Source of the DNA: Sphingobacteriales bacterium | GTDB taxonomy: Bacteria > Bacteroidota > Bacteroidia > Chitinophagales > Chitinophagaceae | NCBI GenBank assembly: GCA_024640385.1 | Contig: JAHEFC010000122.1 | Coordinates: 1-10,048 of the forward strand | DNA: 10,048 bases | Reading direction: 5' to 3' | In this document: piece after piece, positions 2 through 10,048 of the stretch | Position numbering within the stretch: position 1 is the first letter of the stretch | How the letters are laid out: each line of letters opens with the position of its first letter | The notes under the pieces: model-generated | What the model saw: only the letters and a program-made list of their open reading frames with translations | What the model was told of the DNA's origin: nothing | Databases searched by the model: none | Translations under genes and position numbers: made by a program

Positions 2-2350
2 TTTGCCCTGGTGGGAGAGAAAAGGGACGGCCATGATTTTATTGCTGAAGCACTGCAAAGGGGGATCAGATGTTTCGTGGTGAACCATATTCCTTCGGGA
101 CAGGAAACCCATGGAGCCTGTTTTGTAATGGTCAATGACACGCTTGAGGCGCTGCAGGCGCTTGCAGCATACCACCGGAGCAGGTTCCAATATCCAGTTA
201 TTGGACTAACCGGAAGCAACGGAAAAACCATTGTGAAAGAATGGATCAATTATCTGCTGCACCAGGATCTACAGATCGTCAGGAGCCCTAAAAGTTATAA
301 TTCACAGATCGGGGTACCGTTAAGCATCTGGCAAATGCATGAACATGCCGACCTGGCTATAATCGAGGCCGGAATTTCAACAACGGGCGAAATGGAAAAG
401 CTGGAAAGGATGATCCGGCCCGGTATAGGGATATTCACGAATATCGGGGAGGCGCATAGTGAAGGATTCGCCAGCAGAAGGGAAAAGATCAGGGAGAAAC
501 TGCAGCTGTTCAGGTCAAGTAAGGTGCTGATCTACTGCAGGGATTATGAAGATCTGCACGAAGAAGCAGTGGCATTCAGTGCCAGGCATGGCATTACAGG
601 TCTTAACTGGGGGAGAAAGGATGGTTCAACCATCCATGTGGCAGAGACGCGAACAGAAGGGAATTCTACGTTTATACATCTACGTTATAATGAAAGGGAT
701 ATGTCATTCACGATCCCTTTCACCGGGGCGGCCCCCGTTGAGAATGCCATAACCTGTGCGGCATTGATGATATGGATGGGAAAAACAGAAGACATCGACG
801 GAAAAATGCAGGGACTCCCTTCTATCTCGATGAGGCTGGAAATGAAGAATGGGATCAATCGCTGCACTGTGATCAATGACAGTTATAGCAACGATCTCAG
901 TTCGCTGAAACTGGCATTGGAGTTTTTACAACAGCAGCAGCAACATCAGCGGAAGACAGTCATACTGTCAGATATACCTCAGGGCAGGAACACGGAAAAT
1001 GCGCTTTATTCTGAAGTGATCGGTTTATTGAAACAGCATCAAATCAGTTCGTTCAAAGGAATAGGTCCTGTGATCAGTTCCTATGCAGATGCTTTCAGAA
1101 AAGAAGGTATACATGCGGAATTCTGGCTGACCACGGAAGAATTCATTTATCATTTTAATCCCCTGTTATTCAGGGATGAGACCATATTGATCAAGGGGGC
1201 AAGAAGTTTTGGTTTTGAACAGATCAACCGGTTGCTGGAAGTGAAAATGCACCAGACAGTGTTAACCGTTAATCTCAGTTCGATATCGGAGAATCTCACG
1301 ATGTACCGGAAAATGCTGAGGCAGGGAACGAAGATCATGGTTATGGTAAAGGCGTTTTCATATGGCAGCGGGGGGCATGAGATCGCAAGCCTGCTCCAGT
1401 TTCACAAAGTGGATCACCTGGCTGTTGCTTATGCCGATGAGGGTGTGGAATTAAGAAAAGCCGGCATCAGCATTCCCATCATGGTAATGAACCCAGAACT
1501 GTCTTCTTTTTATTCGATTGTCAATTATGATTTGCAGCCTGAGTTATATTCTTTTGAAATACTGAATGCATTCAGCAGGTATATCGGAAACGAAGGGATC
1601 TCGGAATACCCTGTTCATATCAAGTTTGATACCGGCATGCACCGGCTTGGGTTTGAACCCGGAGATGCAGAGAAGCTTGGTGAAAGTTTGTTATTGATGA
1701 ACAACCTCAGGGTTATTTCAGCATTCACGCATCTGGTTTCCAGCGAAGACCCCGCAGATGATGAATATACCAGGCAGCAGGGAAGGAAGTTTACAGAGAT
1801 CTGCGAACAGTTAAGATCAAAACTGGGCTATCCTTTCGACAGACATATTTCAAATACTGCGGCCATACTGAGGCATCCCGAACTTCAGCTGGACATGGTA
1901 AGGCTTGGGATCGGCCTTTATGGGGTTGATGTGACCCGGGAAAACCGGTTAAAATTACGTGAAGCGGCCATACTGACCACTACCATTGCGCAAATCAGGA
2001 AGGTAGGGGCCGGAGAAACGGTAGGTTATAATCGGAGGGGGAGATTGGGCAGGGATTCAACCATTGCCACCATCAGGATAGGCTACGCAGACGGCTATCC
2101 CCGCTCTCTGGGTAATGGCCGGGGTATGGTTATGATCCGGAACAAACTTTTCCCTGTGGTTGGCTCGGTATGTATGGATATGACCATGATCGATATTACT
2201 GACATGCCGGGTATTACAACAGATGATGAGGTGGTTGTATTTGGCAGGGGGCTGAGTTTGAACCAATTGGCGGAATGGGCGGATACCATCCCCTATGATA
2301 TCATGACGGGCATTTCACAAAGGGTGAAGCGCGTTTACATCGAAGATTAA
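2..2350 (+). CDS. murF-alr: Bifunctional UDP-MurNAc-tripeptide:D-Ala-D-Ala ligase / alanine racemase, 5' partial
   Basis: This cytoplasmic fusion enzyme would make D-Ala from L-Ala (racemase half) and add D-Ala-D-Ala to the UDP-MurNAc-tripeptide (MurF half), completing the peptidoglycan precursor. The reading frame is open to the left edge, and codons 2-10 (F-A-L) continue the MurF N-terminus (FAL-GEK-DGHDFI pattern). The GTG at 11 is therefore not the start, and a few tens of residues are missing. Counting residues from that GTG, the MurF half has the ATP-binding TGSNGKT at 67-73, NSQIGVPLSIW at 97-107, TNIGEAHSEGF at 143-153 and DSYSND at 290-295. A glutamine-rich patch lies at 307-313. The racemase half starts near 413. 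Its PLP lysine is K447 in VKAFSYGSG, RLGIGLYG is at 631-638, the catalytic tyrosine is Y673 in VGYNRR, GYADGYPRSLGNG is at 691-703, and a CMDM motif begins at 721. Both catalytic halves look intact. MurF-Alr fusions are typical of Bacteroidota. lspA follows 68 bases downstream. Confidence 0.96.
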   Translation, partial: FALVGEKRDGHDFIAEALQRGIRCFVVNHIPSGQETHGACFVMVNDTLEALQALAAYHRSRFQYPVIGLTGSNGKTIVKEWINYLLHQDLQIVRSPKSYNSQIGVPLSIWQMHEHADLAIIEAGISTTGEMEKLERMIRPGIGIFTNIGEAHSEGFASRREKIREKLQLFRSSKVLIYCRDYEDLHEEAVAFSARHGITGLNWGRKDGSTIHVAETRTEGNSTFIHLRYNERDMSFTIPFTGAAPVENAITCAALMIWMGKTEDIDGKMQGLPSISMRLEMKNGINRCTVINDSYSNDLSSLKLALEFLQQQQQHQRKTVILSDIPQGRNTENALYSEVIGLLKQHQISSFKGIGPVISSYADAFRKEGIHAEFWLTTEEFIYHFNPLLFRDETILIKGARSFGFEQINRLLEVKMHQTVLTVNLSSISENLTMYRKMLRQGTKIMVMVKAFSYGSGGHEIASLLQFHKVDHLAVAYADEGVELRKAGISIPIMVMNPELSSFYSIVNYDLQPELYSFEILNAFSRYIGNEGISEYPVHIKFDTGMHRLGFEPGDAEKLGESLLLMNNLRVISAFTHLVSSEDPADDEYTRQQGRKFTEICEQLRSKLGYPFDRHISNTAAILRHPELQLDMVRLGIGLYGVDVTRENRLKLREAAILTTTIAQIRKVGAGETVGYNRRGRLGRDSTIATIRIGYADGYPRSLGNGRGMVMIRNKLFPVVGSVCMDMTMIDITDMPGITTDDEVVVFGRGLSLNQLAEWADTIPYDIMTGISQRVKRVYIED

Positions 2351-2418: not shown

Positions 2419-3108
2419 GTGAAATTAAGGCATGCTTTCCTTCTCACACTGGTGATCCTTTTTCTTGATCAGTTATTGAAGGTTTATATCAAAACTCATT
2501 ATTTCCTCGGAGAGGAGCACCTCCTGATACCCGGAATGACGTGGTTCCGTCTGCATTTCATTGAAAATGAAGGGATGGCATATGGATGGAAGCTCGGAGG
2601 AAACTGGGGCAAAATGGCCCTTACGCTGTTCCGGCTGGTGGCTGTTATATTTGGAACTTTTTATATAGCGCATACCATCCGAAAAAAATACCACCCTGGT
2701 TTTGTGATCTGCGCAACCCTGATCTATGCTGGGGCGATAGGAAATCTGATCGACAGCCTGTTCTATGGCCTGATATTCGAGAACAGTGATCCTTTCACAC
2801 AGAATATAGCGCGTACCGTATTCTCCAAAGATTTTACCGCCGGTTACGCAGGCTTCCTCCATGGCAAAGTGGTGGATATGCTTTATTTCCCCCTCATCAC
2901 AGATGCAACGCTGCCGAACTGGTTACCCGTTTGGGGTGGAGAACCCTTTGAGTTTTTCCGCCCGGTGTTCAATATCGCAGATGCCTCCATTTCTGTTGGT
3001 GTTTTCATGATCCTGGTATTCCAGAAAAAATTCTTCCAGCCTGAAAAGCAGAATTTTCCAACAGTGGAAACAAGCAGTAAAGTGGATGATGAGGTACAGG
3101 TTCTTTAG
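2419..3108 (+). CDS. lspA: Lipoprotein signal peptidase (signal peptidase II)
   Basis: This inner-membrane aspartyl protease removes the signal peptide from prolipoproteins after diacylglyceryl modification of the lipobox cysteine. The 229-residue protein has an N-terminal membrane segment containing the conserved DQLLK (D17), the NEGMAYG motif (N50, equivalent to NEGAAFG), GAIGNLID (D112), GKVVDM with catalytic D153, and FNIADASISVG with catalytic D188. Three further hydrophobic segments fit the four-helix topology. The spacing D112 to D153 is about 41 residues, versus about ten in proteobacterial LspA. This insertion, including a second stretch near WGGEPFEFF (172-180) before the second aspartate, is a lineage trait of Bacteroidota LspA as I recall it. 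The start is GTG at 2419; no better ATG lies upstream and no Shine-Dalgarno is seen. The C-terminal tail (about 205-229) is polar and probably disordered. A lipoprotein gene follows after 23 bases. Confidence 0.95.
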   Translation: MKLRHAFLLTLVILFLDQLLKVYIKTHYFLGEEHLLIPGMTWFRLHFIENEGMAYGWKLGGNWGKMALTLFRLVAVIFGTFYIAHTIRKKYHPGFVICATLIYAGAIGNLIDSLFYGLIFENSDPFTQNIARTVFSKDFTAGYAGFLHGKVVDMLYFPLITDATLPNWLPVWGGEPFEFFRPVFNIADASISVGVFMILVFQKKFFQPEKQNFPTVETSSKVDDEVQVL

Positions 3109-3131
3109 TTTTTGTCGCTTTCAACTTACAA

Positions 3132-3977
3132 ATGAAGACATTCAGAATATTTATTGCGATCCTGCCACTGGTATTGTTATTTTCCTGTGCAAAGGATTAT
3201 AGTAACGAAAACGGGGGAAGTGCCGGGTCCAGTTGCAAATTGAGCAGCATAGTTGCCGTTGATGATATTACAGGACGGGGTGTATATGCATTTAATACCC
3301 GCTACGATAATACAGGCCGAAGCAATTATGTGGAATTGTACGACAGCGCGTCAAATACTGCTGATTATGAAGTTGACCTGCTCTACCAGGCCAGTGATAC
3401 TATCAAAACAAGTTCAAATGATATTTTAGTACTGGATGGTACAAAAAGGCTTAAGAAACTGATCACCCCCCTTGATCCCAATGACCCCGCAGGGGAAAAG
3501 CTGATCTACGAATACAAATACGATGGCAGCGGCCACCTGGTTGAAAAATCATTAAGCACTTCCACCATACCGCTTGCATTATTTAAATCGATCTATACCT
3601 GGACGGGGGGAAACCTGACCAGGATTGAATCAAGTTCAAGCCTGACAGGGACTAAGCAGAAATTGCTGGAAGTGAATCTGGAGTATGACCTTGGCAAGTC
3701 TCCTAAAAATTTCATCCCCATTTATCCCGAAGGTTTTGAATCTTTCCTATACGTTACATCTGTTGACATGGGTAAGCCCAGTGTCAGTCTTCTTAAAAGG
3801 ATCAGCGCGGTATATTTTGACGACCAGGGTAATCCCGGCACACCCATAGTGACCGAGATCTCAGAAGCAAAATTCTCCAGCGACGGATACCTTACCGAAT
3901 GGTATGTCAGCGGAAGCAGTTTTGATGCGCTCGGGCTGTTCACTGGCAGAAATACTTTCAATTATAAGTGCAACTGA
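3132..3977 (+). CDS. Putative lipoprotein with YD-like segments, function unknown
   Basis: The 281-residue product begins with a type II signal peptide: K2/R5, a hydrophobic stretch to residue 16, then the lipobox L-F-S-C with lipidation at C19. The residues after the cysteine (A-K-D-Y) only partly resemble the K-(D/E)2 lipoprotein export signal of Bacteroidota, so surface display is uncertain. The rest contains short Tyr-Asp segments such as NTRYDNTGR, YEYKYDGSGHLVE, YTWTGGNLTRIES and YFDDQGNPG. These recall the YD/RHS-like beta repeats of many Bacteroidota lipoproteins. No catalytic motif is apparent. The gene starts 23 bases after lspA and is probably co-transcribed with it. Placement beside the lipoprotein peptidase is suggestive but does not define a role. 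Confidence 0.85.
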   Translation: MKTFRIFIAILPLVLLFSCAKDYSNENGGSAGSSCKLSSIVAVDDITGRGVYAFNTRYDNTGRSNYVELYDSASNTADYEVDLLYQASDTIKTSSNDILVLDGTKRLKKLITPLDPNDPAGEKLIYEYKYDGSGHLVEKSLSTSTIPLALFKSIYTWTGGNLTRIESSSSLTGTKQKLLEVNLEYDLGKSPKNFIPIYPEGFESFLYVTSVDMGKPSVSLLKRISAVYFDDQGNPGTPIVTEISEAKFSSDGYLTEWYVSGSSFDALGLFTGRNTFNYKCN

Positions 3978-5749: not shown

Positions 5750-5781
5750 AACTAAAGGTTTGACTTGTTATTCGGAGACCG

Positions 5782-5789
5782 CAAAGTTA
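5782..5789 (-). promoter_or_regulatory. Probable -7 box of the fumC promoter
   Basis: On the - strand this reads TAACTTTG, an exact match to the Bacteroidota -7 consensus TAnnTTTG, 32 bases upstream of the fumC ATG. A TTG lies 25 bases further upstream (5815-5817), slightly too far for a standard -33 box. The position gives a short leader of roughly 25 bases, common in the phylum. Confidence 0.45.
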
Positions 5790-5816
5790 CTGCGGTTTGG
5801 GTTAACTTTATTTACA

Positions 5817-5849
5817 ATGACGAAACTCACCAACAAGGTAAAATTATGA
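5817..5849 (+). CDS. Possible 10-codon leader ORF overlapping the next start codon
   Basis: ATG at 5817 opens a reading frame coding MTKLTNKVKL and closing at TGA 5847-5849. That stop overlaps the ATG (5846-5848) of the downstream secreted-protein gene as ATGA, an arrangement typical of translational coupling. The peptide is basic (three Lys), but nothing else supports expression, so this may be coincidence. Confidence 0.18.
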   Translation: MTKLTNKVKL

Positions 5850-6541
5850 GAGGCCGTTTATTCTTTTTGTGCACACTATTCATTTCCACGCATGCATTCA
5901 GTTTCACAGACACCCTGGGCGTCAGGCAAACAGGGGATTTTGAAGTAGACGGAAAAGGCTCTGCTTCCAACTGGGAGAAGACGGGCTGGGTTCCGCTGAA
6001 ACAACTCGATGGGAACAAGGCTGATTACGCCACCAAATTCAAGATCCTTTATTCGACTGCTGGTGTTTATGTATTGTTTGAAGGACTGGATAATAAGATC
6101 ACTACAGAGTATAAAAATGATTTTGAAAACCTGTTCAACGCGGATGTGTTTGAAGTATTTTTTCATACAGACATATCTATTCCGCTTTATTTTGAATACG
6201 AGGTCAATGCGCTGGATAAAGAGTTGGTTTTACTGATACCGCATCTTGAAAAAGGAGTCATGGGCTGGACTCCCTGGCATTATGAAGGCGATCGGAAAGT
6301 TCGGAAAAAAGTGTTTGTCCATGAAAAGAATGGCAGGATGGAAAAATGGACCGCGGAAATGTTTTTCCCCTATAAATTACTATCTCCACTTGGGAATGTG
6401 CCTCCAATCCCGGGAACCTGCTGGAATGCCAATTTCTACAGGTTGGATTATGATGAAGGGAAGATGATCAAATTTGCATGGTCGCCGGTTGAGGCAAGCT
6501 TTCATGAGTTCAAACGATATGGAACGATCAGGTTTGAATAG
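5846..6541 (+). CDS. Secreted CBM9-like carbohydrate-binding domain protein
   Basis: The start is placed at ATG 5846. It gives a clean Sec signal peptide (MRGRLFFLC then a hydrophobic run to about HAFS, residues 1-19), whereas the frame extended upstream to a TTG at 5765 would bury the signal inside the protein and overlap the promoter region. The mature part, about 210 residues, is a single domain resembling family 9 carbohydrate-binding modules and the related DOMON-type beta sandwich. Supporting features are an early VDG--S---WEKTGWVPL strand, LYSTAGVYVLFEG, a DVFEVFFHTD acidic strand, YFEYEVNALDKE, WTAEMFFPYKLL, WNANFYRLDY and a final WSPVEASFHEFKRYGTIRF. Such proteins in Bacteroidota occur alone or attached to glycan-active enzymes. 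No catalytic residues are evident. It is probably periplasmic or extracellular; the ligand is unknown. The gene converges on the PLP-enzyme operon, so it is not part of that transcript. Confidence 0.82.
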   Translation: MRGRLFFLCTLFISTHAFSFTDTLGVRQTGDFEVDGKGSASNWEKTGWVPLKQLDGNKADYATKFKILYSTAGVYVLFEGLDNKITTEYKNDFENLFNADVFEVFFHTDISIPLYFEYEVNALDKELVLLIPHLEKGVMGWTPWHYEGDRKVRKKVFVHEKNGRMEKWTAEMFFPYKLLSPLGNVPPIPGTCWNANFYRLDYDEGKMIKFAWSPVEASFHEFKRYGTIRFE

Positions 6542-6620
6542 AGAGACAGAGAGCCAGAGAGCCAGAGAGAAAAAATATTCTTCTCTGGCTCTCCGGCTCT
6601 TTGACTCATTTACTCTCTAA
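6540..6620. terminator. Second octamer-repeat hairpin at a convergent junction
   Basis: The left array is four octamers, AGAGAGAC, AGAGAGCC, AGAGAGCC and AGAGAGAA (6540-6571). The right array is five octamers approximating CTCTCTNN (6581-6620). Positions 6550-6569 pair with 6581-6600 with one A-C mismatch and one terminal G-U. The outer right-hand octamers have no full left partner. The first repeat unit begins inside the TAG stop codon (6539-6541) of the CBM9-like gene, and the other flank lies 2 bases from the stop of the PLP-enzyme gene. It probably terminates both transcripts; an A-run in the loop reads as a U-run on the - strand. Confidence 0.72.
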
Positions 6621-6622
6621 GA

Positions 6623-7837
6623 TCAGCTTACTGCTTTCTGACACACTTCCTTCATCCGTTTGGCAACAATTTTTTCCTCTCCTTCTTTCAGGCACCATGC
6701 TGTGATGCCCAGGTTATCCTTACCGCCAACCACTTCAATGGAAGGTTTGCCGTTGCGGAGTTCCAACTTCATTTGGTCTCCATCCATCTTCACAATGCTG
6801 CTGTCCCAGGTGATCCTGAGTGTAGGGGTCACATTGGCCAGCTTGGGAGTTGATACAGATGTTTTAAATCCTTTCACACTGTCAACCGCGGCTTTGATCT
6901 GGTTGATCTTTTGCTCATATTGCTTAGCCATGGCATCATGATCGATCTTAATGAATTCTTCAAGAGCCACCAGCATGCCCAGTATTTCTTCTTTATTTAC
7001 TTTCATGCCGCGGCCAATGGTTTCACCCCTTGGCGGCATGGACAGTCTTGCGCCGGCAATTATATCTTTCTTACCCATAAGGATACCCGCAGATTGCGGA
7101 CCCCTGAGTGCCTTACCGCCGGATATGACCACCATGTCAAATCCCATGTCGTTGAATCTCCAGAGGTTTGAAACCGGGGGTACATCTGCTGCAATATCTA
7201 TGGATGTTGGTATGCCGTTCTGTTTGGCAATGGCTACCCATTCTTCGTGCATGATCTTGCCGCTGTCAGCATTGGCGTGAAGAAAATGCATGGATGCCGT
7301 ATTGCTGTTGATCGCATTTTTGAGTTCTTCAACGGTTTCGATCATGATGATCTTGCAACCAGTATTGGTCAGTGCCTGGTTATAGCCTATGGCATGGGAT
7401 TTCTGGCAGATGACTTCGCTTTTCATGCCGGTGCCTTCCAGGTGTGGAAGGGACCTGATCTTTTGTGGATCTTTCCCGGTAAGGATACCTGCAAGGCCGA
7501 GGGTAAGGCCCGCAAACGCGCCACTTGTTACCACGGCAGCTTCTGCATGTGTGATGGCCGCGATGCGCTCTCCCACTTTATCCTGCAGATCGTCAAGCAT
7601 ACAGAATTGCTGTGAAGCCGCGCGGATGGCTTCCATGGTTTCCGGTCTCATCAGGGTTGCCGTCATGGCCGTATAAGTGCCGGCGGCATTGATGAATGTT
7701 CTTACACCCAGTTCTGCGAAATAATCTCTTTTAGGAGCCTGCTTAGGTGCAGCTTCTGCATTAGTGATATCGCCCAGGAATGCTGCTCCTGCTACCGGTG
7801 TTACTGTCAGTGCCTTAATTAGATCTCTGCGTTTCAA
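6623..7837 (-). CDS. Exported SelA/DgaE-like PLP-dependent enzyme
   Basis: The 404-residue protein has a fold-type I PLP domain of the selenocysteine-synthase-like class, which also includes D-glucosaminate-6-phosphate ammonia-lyase (DgaE). After the signal come FINAAGTYTAM (48-58), EAAVVTSGAFAGLTLG (99-114), the cofactor aspartate region SIDIAADVPP (212-221), and SGGKALRGPQSAGILMGKK (239-257), with K242 as the predicted Schiff-base lysine. A small C-terminal domain ends the protein. Residues 1-30 look like a twin-arginine signal: K-R-R-D-L-I-K, a hydrophobic stretch, then an AEA cleavage site. Tat export would suit an enzyme that must fold with PLP first. True SelA is excluded by the signal and by the absence of selenocysteine genes here. 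An ammonia-lyase or related elimination on an amino acid or amino-sugar acid is the best guess. It is the last gene of the operon, 30 bases after the RidA gene. Confidence 0.85.
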   Translation of the reverse strand: MKRRDLIKALTVTPVAGAAFLGDITNAEAAPKQAPKRDYFAELGVRTFINAAGTYTAMTATLMRPETMEAIRAASQQFCMLDDLQDKVGERIAAITHAEAAVVTSGAFAGLTLGLAGILTGKDPQKIRSLPHLEGTGMKSEVICQKSHAIGYNQALTNTGCKIIMIETVEELKNAINSNTASMHFLHANADSGKIMHEEWVAIAKQNGIPTSIDIAADVPPVSNLWRFNDMGFDMVVISGGKALRGPQSAGILMGKKDIIAGARLSMPPRGETIGRGMKVNKEEILGMLVALEEFIKIDHDAMAKQYEQKINQIKAAVDSVKGFKTSVSTPKLANVTPTLRITWDSSIVKMDGDQMKLELRNGKPSIEVVGGKDNLGITAWCLKEGEEKIVAKRMKEVCQKAVS

Positions 7838-7867
7838 TGTGATCAGTTTTTTGAATTAATATTATTG

Positions 7868-8350
7868 TTAGGGTTTGGTGGTATAGGCTATGCAATCCAT
7901 CTCCACTAAAGAGTTGCCCGGTACACCGCCATAGGTGGCAACTGTTGTTCTTACGGGAGGATTTTGACCAAAACGTCCCAGGAATACTTCGTTCATTCCT
8001 TTGTAATCATTGAGATCGGCCAGGTATACATTTACTTTCAACACCCTGTCCATGGATGAACCTGCGTCTTTCAGTTCTTTTTCCAGTTCTTTCAGTACAT
8101 GATCTGTATGCGCTTTGATATCTCCTTCAAAATGCGCGCCCTTTCCGGCAATGAACACCAGGCCGCCGTAGGTGGTATGACCTGAAAAAAGAGGTACTTC
8201 CTTGTCGTAAACAATATTACCTGCTTGTTTTTCTGCCGAACCATTATTTGCCGGTTCAGCCTTTGCCAACGCAGACAGGCCCGTCATTCCAATTAATGTT
8301 CCAAATAGTTTTCTGAAAGCAGATCTTCTTCCCTGGTTTTGCATGTTCAT
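7868..8350 (-). CDS. Exported RidA-family imine/enamine deaminase
   Basis: The 160-residue protein is a RidA/YjgF/UK114 domain (about 45-160) behind an N-terminal export signal. RidA enzymes hydrolyse reactive enamines and imines such as 2-aminoacrylate to keto acids and ammonia, and act as trimers. Motifs seen are GGLVFIAGKG (62-71), the helix HTDHVLKELEKELKDAG (81-97), RVLKVNVYLADLNDY (102-116), NPPVRTTV with R134 at the position of the substrate-carboxylate arginine, and LVEMDCIAY with E150. The N-terminus has R8-R9, F12 and a hydrophobic run ending in the cleavage-like AKA (29-31). This is close to, but not a perfect, Tat motif because Phe is one residue late. The usual RidA is about 130 residues and cytosolic, so the signal is the odd feature. 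The gene begins 3 bases after the lactonase-RidA stop. A second ATG two codons in is an equally possible start. Confidence 0.9.
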   Translation of the reverse strand: MNMQNQGRRSAFRKLFGTLIGMTGLSALAKAEPANNGSAEKQAGNIVYDKEVPLFSGHTTYGGLVFIAGKGAHFEGDIKAHTDHVLKELEKELKDAGSSMDRVLKVNVYLADLNDYKGMNEVFLGRFGQNPPVRTTVATYGGVPGNSLVEMDCIAYTTKP

Positions 8351-8353
8351 TTT

Positions 8354-9916
8354 TTATTTAAGTTCAACAATCATTTCAATTTCGATGGCGATATTATTGG
8401 GCAAAGCATTTGTGCCCACTGAAGTGCGTACATGCCTGCCATTATCTCCAAACACATCTACCAGCAGGTTGGAACATCCATTCATCACCTGGGGCTGCTG
8501 GGTAAATGAAGGGTCGCAGTTCACGAGCCCCATTACTTTTACAATCCTTTTGATCTTATTCAGGTCGCCAACATAAGCTTTTAATGTGGAGATCAGCGAA
8601 ATGGCAGTAAACCTGGCAGCTTCCTGGCCCTGCTCAAGGGTGAGGTCTGAACCAACCTTTCCTATCACCTGTCCGCCGCCCGGTTTGTCAGGACCGTGGC
8701 CTGAAAGAAAAAGAAGATTACCTGATTCAACCACTTTTACATAGTTCGCAATGGGGGCCGATGGCGGGATCAGCTGGATGCCCAGGGCTTTGATCCTTTC
8801 TTCCGGGTCAGTGTTTTTAACCAGCGGTCTGAAGTCTATGCAAACCGGCATCTGTACTGAAATATCCTTCTTTGTGTCTGTAAGTTTACCGGTGGATTCA
8901 TCAAATGAGAACACCTGGATCTTATTATCTTCCTGGCTGGCTACAAATACGAATTTTCCGTTTGGCGAAAAGCTGAAATTCCTGGGCTTTTTGGCTACAG
9001 GTTGGTGGGCTGTCTTCTTTAAACTGCCATCGGGCTGTACCGAGAAAATAGTAAGATCGTTATTGGTGACCCTGTTTGAACTGATCAGCCATTTGCCGCC
9101 TGGAGATAAATGAATGTCGGCACTGCCGCGGTCAGTTTTTGCACTGGTGGTATCTGCAACAACGGTTTGTATTTTTTCGAACTGATTGTCTTTTACTTTG
9201 AACACATCCACCACGCCTTTCATTTCACTGATCAGGTAAGCATTGCTGCCGGCTTTATTGAAAATAAGATGACGGGGACCATTACCCGCAGTTATGGGAA
9301 TGGCATTATACTTCTCATCCACGGTGCCATCAGCATAGATCTTGTGCTGATAGATCCTGTCTGACCCGAGGTCAGTGACATAGAGATAATTCTGATCTGG
9401 CGACAATATTACATTATGCGCATGAGGTTTTTCCTGCCTGGATTTATTTATGCTTGATCCCTTGTAAACAATATGTTGTGCGATGGGCTGAAGTTCCCAG
9501 TTCTTTGTTTTGAATACGCTTAGGCTTCCGCCGGAATAATTTGCGGTGTATACGGTTTGTGAAGACTCACGAATGGTTACAAAACAGGGAGCGTCTCCAA
9601 TGGTGGGCTGAGTGTTCATTTTCTGGTATTCTCCTTTGCTGTCGAGTTTATAGGATGTCAGCCTTGAATTCCCGGCGCCTTCCTCAGAAACGGCATACAT
9701 GATACTGCCATCCCTGGTAGTGGCGAGGTAAGAGGCATTGGGATTTTGTTTTACATAGATCTTACTGGCAGCACCTGTATTGGCATTCACTTCATAAACT
9801 TCTATACCGGGATTTCCATTTTTAGTGTATGAGCCCACTACCATCTGGTAAACAGGGTCATTCTGGAAGGGTGAGAACATCAAAGAAATAAAACTGAACA
9901 CTAAATAAAGCATCAT
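8354..9916 (-). CDS. Exported lactonase-family beta-propeller fused to a RidA-like domain
   Basis: This 520-residue protein has three parts. Residues 1-18 form a hydrophobic Sec-type signal. Residues about 22-362 are a seven-bladed propeller of the 6-phosphogluconolactonase-like lactonase family, shown by VVGSYTKNGNPGIEVYEV (26-43), NPNASYLATTRDG (58-70), PHAHNVILSPDQNYLYVTDLGSD (164-186), GNGPRHLIF (211-219), GSADIHLSPGGKWL (264-277) and SPNGKFVFVASQEDN (317-331). Residues about 371-520 are a RidA-superfamily domain of the larger YjgF_endoribonc-like type: PEERIKALGIQL, GNLLFLSGHGP, RIVKVMGLVNCDPSFTQQP, HVRTSVG (R497) and IAIEIE. The junction (about 363-371, with no long linker) shows no frame disturbance. 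It is first in a three-gene operon with another RidA protein and a PLP enzyme. Likely roles are lactone opening plus imine hydrolysis in the periplasm. Propellers of this family can also be non-enzymatic, so lactonase activity is less certain than the fold. Confidence 0.88.
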   Translation of the reverse strand: MMLYLVFSFISLMFSPFQNDPVYQMVVGSYTKNGNPGIEVYEVNANTGAASKIYVKQNPNASYLATTRDGSIMYAVSEEGAGNSRLTSYKLDSKGEYQKMNTQPTIGDAPCFVTIRESSQTVYTANYSGGSLSVFKTKNWELQPIAQHIVYKGSSINKSRQEKPHAHNVILSPDQNYLYVTDLGSDRIYQHKIYADGTVDEKYNAIPITAGNGPRHLIFNKAGSNAYLISEMKGVVDVFKVKDNQFEKIQTVVADTTSAKTDRGSADIHLSPGGKWLISSNRVTNNDLTIFSVQPDGSLKKTAHQPVAKKPRNFSFSPNGKFVFVASQEDNKIQVFSFDESTGKLTDTKKDISVQMPVCIDFRPLVKNTDPEERIKALGIQLIPPSAPIANYVKVVESGNLLFLSGHGPDKPGGGQVIGKVGSDLTLEQGQEAARFTAISLISTLKAYVGDLNKIKRIVKVMGLVNCDPSFTQQPQVMNGCSNLLVDVFGDNGRHVRTSVGTNALPNNIAIEIEMIVELK

Positions 9917-10041
9917 GTAACCATTGAATTTTCGGTGAATAAAAATTACAATTTATTTTTCAATCAGGTCAGCAGTCAGGGAATCGTTGTAATGATCAAA
10001 AAGATGTATATTTTAACCAAATCCTGATCAAAGCAAGTAAC
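9917..10041. other. Intergenic region upstream of the lactonase-RidA operon
   Basis: This 125-base AT-rich stretch should hold the operon promoter on the - strand. A near match to the -7 box (TAATTTTT, last base off) sits close to the gene, but no convincing -33 partner was found. The octamer TGATCAAA occurs twice in direct orientation (9993-10000 and 10025-10032), 32 bases apart, and its TGATCA core is palindromic, so a regulator site is possible. No ORF of note is contained. Confidence 0.4.
9987..10014 (+). promoter_or_regulatory. Possible promoter for a divergent gene at the right edge
   Basis: TTG at 9987-9989, a 17-base spacer, then TATATTTT at 10007-10014 fits the Bacteroidota pattern TTG-N17-23-TAnnTTTG with one mismatch. 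An ATG follows at 10042, 27 bases after the box. Confidence 0.3.
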
Positions 10042-10048
10042 ATGAGAA
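10042..10048 (+). CDS. Possible first codons of a divergent gene cut by the window edge
   Basis: ATG AGA A is preceded by an A-rich leader and a candidate promoter, and sits opposite the start of the lactonase-RidA operon. Only two codons are visible, so the call rests on position alone. Confidence 0.22.

Follow-up and report, generated by a model that had tools for sequence, protein, structure and literature searches.

Can an amino-sugar acid be deaminated outside the cytoplasm by a dedicated set of exported enzymes that includes RidA? Rid proteins are usually portrayed as protecting enzymes dependent on pyridoxal phosphate (PLP) inside the cell. The question is raised by a three-gene operon in contig JAHEFC010000122.1 of Sphingobacteriales bacterium (assembly GCA_024640385.1, 585 contigs). 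This entire contig (G000:C139; 10,048 nt), which we call the window, carries three open reading frames (ORFs) on the minus strand, at 9916-8354 (520 aa), 8350-7868 (160 aa) and 7837-6623 (404 aa, TTG start), with gaps of 3 and 30 bases between them. They had been read as a lactonase-like propeller fused to a RidA domain, a second RidA and a SelA/DgaE-like PLP enzyme, all exported and together forming a periplasmic deamination pathway; genes, strand, gaps and domains were confirmed by ORF calling and Pfam. We lean towards this view and consider it somewhat probable that the operon is part of a periplasmic deamination module acting on an amino-sugar acid. The original prediction is right in outline, but it lacked the most constant partner of the set, an amidohydrolase, and the chemistry is something that we infer.

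The 404-aa product (6623..7837, minus strand) was assigned to the DgaE/SelA-like PLP enzymes of fold-type I by Pfam (Aminotran_5/SelA), NCBIfam and structure matches. Its best NCBIfam match is the DgaE family TIGR01437 (E = 4.2e-50, under the cut-off), and 7lc0, the structure of DGL, is its best match in both sequence and fold (template modelling score 0.53-0.58). The AlphaFold model agrees with the fold, but it is too weak to place residues because its predicted local distance difference test (pLDDT) score is low, with a mean of 73 and low values around the active-site lysine. The presumed PLP lysine is Lys242 (SGGKALRGPQ; codon at 7112..7114, minus strand), which is invariant in the family alignment and aligns with the SGAK lysine of 7lc0; in DGL this residue is Lys-217 in the accessible part of PMC9529869 and residue 213 by count on 7lc0. 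As described there, the phosphate of the DGL substrate was docked near Arg301, Arg332 and Arg346, His163 is the proton donor, and the variant H163A releases an enamine. In the alignment with 7lc0 the lysine is kept and the three arginines correspond to T, V and W in the window enzyme, showing at the level of the alignment that the phosphate pocket of DGL is lost. No histidine was found at column 163, which lies in a gapped loop, in any of 116 aligned Bacteroidota PLP ORFs, while two of them have one at column 162 (here and for RidA, where loci overlap, the same gene is counted repeatedly).

The product of the middle gene (7868..8350, minus strand, 160 aa) matches Ribonuc_L-PSP PF01042 (E = 3.7e-17) and fails the cut-off of the curated subfamily TIGR00004 (60.7 vs 106.25 bits). 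With residue numbers following E. coli RidA, the stand-alone RidA ORFs have Arg105 in 87/87 and Glu120 in 84/87 cases (the other 3 are gapped there), and 84 of them have Phe instead of Tyr17. Two other PF01042 proteins are encoded in the genome, one on contig C121 that by eye resembles an ordinary cytosolic member and one on contig C231 (L145, match at 7072-7407 of that contig), a Rid-domain protein outside the operon whose N-terminus looks lipoprotein-like by eye.

Structure matches, Pfam and the Rid residues all show the first gene of the operon (8354..9916, minus strand, 520 aa) to encode a lactonase-like seven-bladed propeller followed by a PF14588-type Rid domain. Residues 25-362 (8831..9844, minus strand) form the propeller part. 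The match to lactonase PF10282 (E = 2.4e-92; 310.2 bits against a gathering threshold of 21.7) places it in this family, with lactonase as the predicted activity, and among solved relatives whose function is named, the periplasmic gluconolactonase PpgL is the nearest (6igb, E = 1.3e-47). The Rid domain comprises residues 372-520 (8357..8803, minus strand); it matches YjgF_endoribonc PF14588 over residues 372-511 (E = 7.2e-20) and the structure 3d01 (E = 4.6e-32). Equivalents of Y17, R105 and E120 are present in all 18 fusion ORFs that were aligned.

To collect relatives of the operon, contigs were scanned with aligned PLP enzymes as the query. Of 555 confirmed stretches the best 80 were kept, and with the window they make 81 loci. 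The record titles name Bacteroidota taxa for 77 of the 80, the remaining three reading 'uncultured bacterium' only. These loci were picked by PLP similarity, and several come from close relatives, in places two from one genome. Over all 81 we applied rules of our own for the twin-arginine translocation (Tat) and Sec pathways, not SignalP; the Tat rule requires a twin-arginine motif and an uncharged h-region, with every in-frame start up to codon 70 considered, and other ORFs of at least 150 aa served as background. The Tat rule called 78/91 PLP ORFs (one cut PLP ORF was excluded) and 69/71 RidA ORFs, compared to 10/390 background ORFs. In the window, the PLP enzyme (MKRRDLIK...) and the RidA (GRRSAFRK...) were both called, and TatC is present in the genome. 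According to the rule and, for the PLP enzyme, the alignment, the putative signals cover residues 1-31 of the PLP enzyme (KRRDLIK ... AEA; 7745..7837, minus strand) and residues 1-32 of the RidA (GRRSAFRK ... AKA; 8255..8350, minus strand), with the cleavage sites placed by eye. The PLP enzyme and the RidA are thus predicted Tat substrates, the fusion is not, and the export signals predicted for the set are well supported.

Do these genes belong together? At limits of E<=1e-60 for the PLP enzyme and the amidohydrolase, E<=1e-18 for RidA and E<=1e-40 for the RraA relative, we surveyed 296 genomes sampled evenly across Bacteroidota. The PLP enzyme, the RidA and the amidohydrolase were found in an identical seven genomes, while the remaining 289 lacked all three, so the pairing of PLP enzyme and RidA goes beyond chance. 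The RraA relative is present in 18 genomes, with all seven set-bearing genomes among them. For the six set-bearing genomes besides that of the window, which represent five genera and four families, an independent six-in-six overlap out of 295 genomes would have P = 1.1e-12, a rough value and only a guide because the genomes share ancestry. In their loci (L124-L129) the genes for PLP enzyme, RidA and amidohydrolase are all present. Such a scarce and scattered distribution is what one would expect of an accessory catabolic cassette.

Among the PLP-selected loci, BLAST searches were evaluated for the 57 that reach 15 kb or more, leaving aside 24 shorter ones (L043 yielded no PLP ORF in the clustering). 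RidA was found in 51 of these long loci, the amidohydrolase in 53, and PLP enzyme, RidA and amidohydrolase together in 50; the other partners were GSDH-like (sugar-dehydrogenase/cytochrome c, 40), BASS-like (26) and RraA-like (23) genes. Among all 81 loci, the PLP gene directly adjoins the RidA gene on the same strand in 50. The amidohydrolase/deacetylase, which the first analysis of the window could not have seen, is a partner as constant as RidA. Conservation of the neighbourhood with signal peptides, which the original prediction had named as its own test, was found in several Bacteroidota families and in an acidobacterium, and a dedicated, exported-looking RidA/PLP pair is borne out by the survey and by the Tat calls alike.

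A full-length amidohydrolase of a relative (L048) scores 445.3 bits with NF006689 (amidohydrolase/deacetylase, cut-off 371). The partial copy in the genome under study scores 261.5 bits over profile positions 131-372 and is 69% identical to the L048 protein over 256 residues. This C-terminal part of the gene starts at the first bases of contig C490, which we take to adjoin the end of the window, although this cannot be shown. Upstream of the operon, the leader (9917..10048) runs up to the contig end, and in fusion-bearing relatives the amidohydrolase gene lies here in divergent orientation. On C490 the amidohydrolase part is followed by a gene for a GSDH/cytochrome protein, as in relatives, then by a gene for a BNR-repeat protein and the start of a SusC-like gene. 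The gene for this BNR-repeat (PF13088) protein, at 2577-3635 of locus L114, lies between the GSDH/cytochrome gene and the SusC-like gene, beside the amidohydrolase fragment.

A second Rid also recurs in the cassette. In five of the six other survey loci (not in L125) it is encoded by a stand-alone gene and shares 58-72% identity with the fusion's Rid half; a design with two Rids thus extends beyond the fusion itself. These genes lie at 14516-15049 in L124, 7527-8108 in L126, 14299-14898 and 14962-15513 in L127, 8191-8751 in L128 and 5540-6097 in L129. By eye, the N-terminus is lipoprotein-like in L126, in one of the two L127 copies, in L128 and in L129, and resembles an ordinary signal in L124. 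The same matches had at first been counted as a lactonase gene in 5/6 survey loci. This count was rejected, since the matches were to the Rid half (stand-alone PF14588-like genes) and not to propellers, and for all lactonase counts given here, 180 or more residues had to align with a propeller.

Beyond Bacteroidota, we examined 14 loci from annotated plasmid records (13 of 237 matches in one search and one of 238 in another). A plasmid of Granulicella (Acidobacteriota) encodes a PLP enzyme 39% identical to that of the window, in the order carboxypeptidase-regulatory-domain protein, RraA, PLP enzyme, RidA, second PLP enzyme, amidohydrolase/deacetylase and PF10282 lactonase. Inspection by eye revealed Tat-like motifs on both PLP enzymes, the RidA and the lactonase, and hydrophobic N-termini on the others. 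PLP relatives without a signal were found in haloarchaea and rhizobia. Nine haloarchaeal loci were examined, out of 18 haloarchaeal rows among 40 listed of 237 matches, and all nine have carbohydrate genes, judged by product names, near the PLP relative; two of the nine contain glucose 1-dehydrogenase, a Rid and a PIG-L deacetylase. In chitinotrophic haloarchaea a DGL-like enzyme has been predicted to act once glucosaminate has formed, although the predicted route includes a phosphorylation step, according to the accessible text of PMC12343721. Three rhizobial loci contain an ABC importer (ATP-binding cassette) and a Rid gene, one of them with an amidohydrolase as well, while neither importer nor Rid is annotated in the examined stretch of a fourth, from Sinorhizobium meliloti. 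On pSymA of S. meliloti (L121), a DgaE-like enzyme lies in a cluster with phosphoenolpyruvate mutase, cytidylyltransferase and CDP-alcohol phosphatidyltransferase genes, and a propeller lactonase borders the examined region, which suggests that this branch of DgaE-like enzymes has another role.

In a PLP tree of 48 leaves, 35 form one clade with a support of 0.999, comprising 28 short forms from Bacteroidota, the Granulicella enzyme and six long paralogues, and an RR pair occurs within residues 1-70 in 34 of these 35. DGL, Cap15 and the enzymes from haloarchaea and rhizobia fall outside. A split with a support of 0.986 separates DGL and Cap15 from all other leaves, so Cap15 is no closer to the clade than DGL. 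The long paralogue (up to ~620 aa) was observed in L010-L014 (L013 and L014 being contig-end pieces), L045 (11310-12941), L065, L081, L092 and L117 (7701-9299). The RR motif is present in 5/9 Bacteroidota copies and in the Granulicella copy, and a Tat-type RidA lies within three genes of the paralogue in only 2/9 Bacteroidota copies.

On this basis we propose the following pathway. The lactonase would open the lactone of an amino-sugar acid, and the amidohydrolase would take off the N-acyl group. The PLP enzyme, folded and loaded with its cofactor in the cytoplasm, would leave via Tat, as expected when an enzyme already carries its cofactor; PvdN and PtaA take this route in the accessible part of PMC6206403. 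It would then eliminate water at C2-C3 of an unphosphorylated 2-amino-2-deoxyaldonate, giving an enamine or imine. Such an aldonate is the most likely substrate, and its assignment is the weakest step of the proposal. Hydrolysis of the enamine or imine would then fall to the exported RidA together with the second Rid, which in the window is the domain fused to the propeller, and would yield ammonia plus a 2-keto-3-deoxy acid. This acid would be split in many relatives by an RraA-type aldolase whose N-terminus is signal-like, and a BASS-family carrier would bring 2-oxo acids into the cytoplasm.

Several observations weigh against this proposal. The PLP enzyme reached only 170.6 and 150.7 bits in family tests, the latter against 600 for the DGL equivalog, and Cap15 (8t7j), the second-best fold match, has a different, oxygen-dependent chemistry. 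RidA was not found in 6/57 long loci, and only 3/9 haloarchaeal loci have a Rid gene. The fusion occurs in just 16/81 loci (7/57 long loci). That all three proteins are exported held for the PLP enzyme and the RidA by the Tat rule; the N-terminus of the fusion is short, uncharged and hydrophobic and was called by neither rule, as were 16/25 members of its cluster, whereas in Dyadobacter the N-termini of lactonase relatives that stand alone look by eye like ordinary signals. Because the Sec rule is also positive in 183/390 background ORFs and 11/27 sigma factors, it says little about Sec-type partners. The case for the lactonase as a part of the pathway was weakened. PF10282 propellers were found in none of the six other survey loci and in 18/57 long loci, and gluconolactonase-type genes in 7/57; with either type accepted, the counts are 5/6 and 24/57. 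The SMP-30/gluconolactonase-type genes in five of the six survey loci (not found in the stretch of L126) speak for the proposal. In the genome under study, the RraA and BASS genes lie side by side, on a contig (C30) other than that of the operon. Finally, no glycan-cleaving gene was seen among the frequent partners of the PLP-selected loci, and this genome has no match to lytic polysaccharide monooxygenases (LPMOs) of family AA10, although it has six matches to GH20. A source of oxidised chitin is thus not evident, and LPMO-made oxidised chitin was rejected as the origin of the substrate.

It is tempting to extend the periplasmic deamination module to a whole periplasmic catabolic segment for N-acetylated amino-sugar acids, with lactone opening, deacetylation, PLP-dependent beta-elimination, imine hydrolysis by Rid and, in many relatives, aldol cleavage, so that nitrogen and acetate would be shed outside the cytoplasm and only 2-oxo acids imported via BASS. 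Two Rid proteins would then have been recruited as dedicated enzymes, one by Tat and one as a lipoprotein, Sec protein or lactonase fusion, because His163, through which DGL releases an imine and not an enamine, is missing from the PLP clade. We put this forward as a tentative possibility only. As an explanation in its own right, the loss of His163 as the cause of the RidA linkage, by enamine release as in H163A in the accessible part of PMC9529869, was rejected and survives only inside this wider reading. The rhizobial enzymes of L120, L122 and L143 keep both His residues, yet a RidA gene is adjacent or near, and seven aligned haloarchaeal enzymes lack His163, yet a Rid gene is present in only 3/9 haloarchaeal loci, as noted above.

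Alternatively, the same module could act on a small N-acyl-beta-hydroxy-D-amino acid of the serine or threonine type, with deacylation, dehydration and RidA acting on aminoacrylate or iminobutyrate. The amidohydrolase would fit here as a core partner with a weak match to D-aminoacylases (1rjp, E = 2e-4), aminoacrylate is the classical RidA substrate in the accessible parts of PMC5636819 and PMC12172467, and OngC, a D-glucosaminate (GlcN1A) deaminase of another fold, also acts on D-Ser and D-Thr according to the excerpts of PMC9537276. However, a small amino acid leaves no role for the gluconolactonase-type genes of the survey loci or the sugar-dehydrogenase-like genes of 40/57 long loci, and the nine haloarchaeal loci sit among carbohydrate genes. 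We therefore regard this substrate as unlikely.

Still less likely, in our estimate, is that the PLP enzyme is an oxygen-dependent decarboxylase or oxygenase like Cap15 or PvdN, which would yield a periplasmic carboxamide or aldehyde, with the Rids clearing imine by-products. In line with this idea are the rank of Cap15 among the fold matches and its substrate, a beta-hydroxy-alpha-amino acid attached to a nucleoside (accessible part of PMC7497351), as well as the absence of the DGL proton donor His163, since a lacking proton donor is tied to oxygen chemistry in CcbF-type enzymes in the accessible part of PMC11794154. But 2-oxo acids are what the RraA-type aldolase and BASS partners suggest, the window enzyme lacks the arginines that 8t7j has at the positions of R301/R332/R346, and the tree puts Cap15 no nearer to the clade than DGL. 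The least probable explanation is a general detoxification of the cell envelope, in which imines made by dehydrogenases of the periplasm are cleared by exported Rids and the PLP enzyme is only loosely coupled to its neighbours: the frequent sugar-dehydrogenase-like genes and the lipoprotein-like Rid of contig C231 would suit it, but three genes confined to the same seven of 296 genomes behave as a catabolic cassette and not as housekeeping genes.

The surroundings of the operon in the window can be described briefly. A CBM9-like protein with a signal-like N-terminus is encoded at 5765..6541 on the plus strand, convergent with the operon, and its family is found in 28/81 loci including the window. 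Between this gene and the PLP gene, at 6540..6600, lies a GA-rich tandem with the 8-base unit AGAGAGCC in 3.8 copies, which is part of an inverted repeat recognized by eye. The inverted repeat is a possible shared terminator of the two convergent genes; the terminator scan gave no call at this site. At the other end of the window, an ORF of 779 aa (11-2350, plus strand) encodes Mur-ligase domains fused to alanine racemase, and signal peptidase II follows at 2419-3108.

If the proposed module exists, nitrogen of amino-sugar acids would be released outside the cytoplasm in Bacteroidota and Acidobacteriota. Moreover, an exported trio of PLP enzyme, RidA and deacetylase, apart from the cell's own PLP enzymes, could show whether Rid acts as a pathway enzyme or as a protector. 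In the literature on exported RidA, on lactonase-Rid links and on RidA-RraA-PLP operons, we found no exported RidA/PLP set among the titles and abstract openings listed, in which subscription journals are thinly covered.

The closest described logic is that of the ong pathway of Pseudoalteromonas prydzensis. According to the excerpts of PMC9537276, the deacetylase OngB, the PLP deaminase OngC and the RidA protein OngD lead from N-acetyl-D-glucosaminate (GlcNAc1A) to 2-keto-3-deoxygluconate (KDG), a 2-amino-2-deoxyaldonate being converted to KDG and ammonia. OngD is essential for growth on GlcNAc1A, with its role stated there as unknown, and outer-membrane transporters for the oxidised sugars are a further likeness. 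However, OngC is of fold-type III and the window enzyme of fold-type I and DgaE-like, OngB matches the amidohydrolase of the set only weakly (9kb1, E = 2.5e-4), and OngB and OngC are predicted to be cytoplasmic, in contrast to the Tat-type signals on the window PLP enzyme and RidA. Furthermore, ong as described there is an oxidative chitin pathway, whereas the genome under study has no LPMO match. With DGL and the dga pathway (accessible part of PMC9529869), the window enzyme shares the fold, the wider family, the PLP lysine and the expected elimination followed by an aldolase, but it has lost the phosphate arginines and His163, bears a Tat-type signal and has RidA and deacetylase partners, while the dga pathway is cytosolic with substrate uptake by the phosphotransferase system.

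The export of a PLP enzyme has precedents in PvdN and PtaA of Pseudomonas. In the accessible part of PMC6206403, PLP is loaded in the cytoplasm and Tat carries the enzyme to the periplasm, as we propose here; these enzymes differ in serving siderophore tailoring by other PLP reactions, and no RidA partner is described in that text. The window RidA shares with the Rid family, as presented in the excerpts of PMC4433059, the family profile and the equivalents of Arg105 and Glu120, and RidA proteins of its type differ by the Tat signal and by Phe in place of Tyr17 in 84/87 ORFs. PpgL, whose molecule name in the PDB says periplasmic, shares the PF10282-type propeller with the fusion and lacks the Rid domain, because its 364-residue chain matches the propeller part only. 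In summary, the set is an exported version of a known type of pathway, of which the close parallels, dga and ong, are cytosolic, and Tat-exported PLP enzymes are already known.

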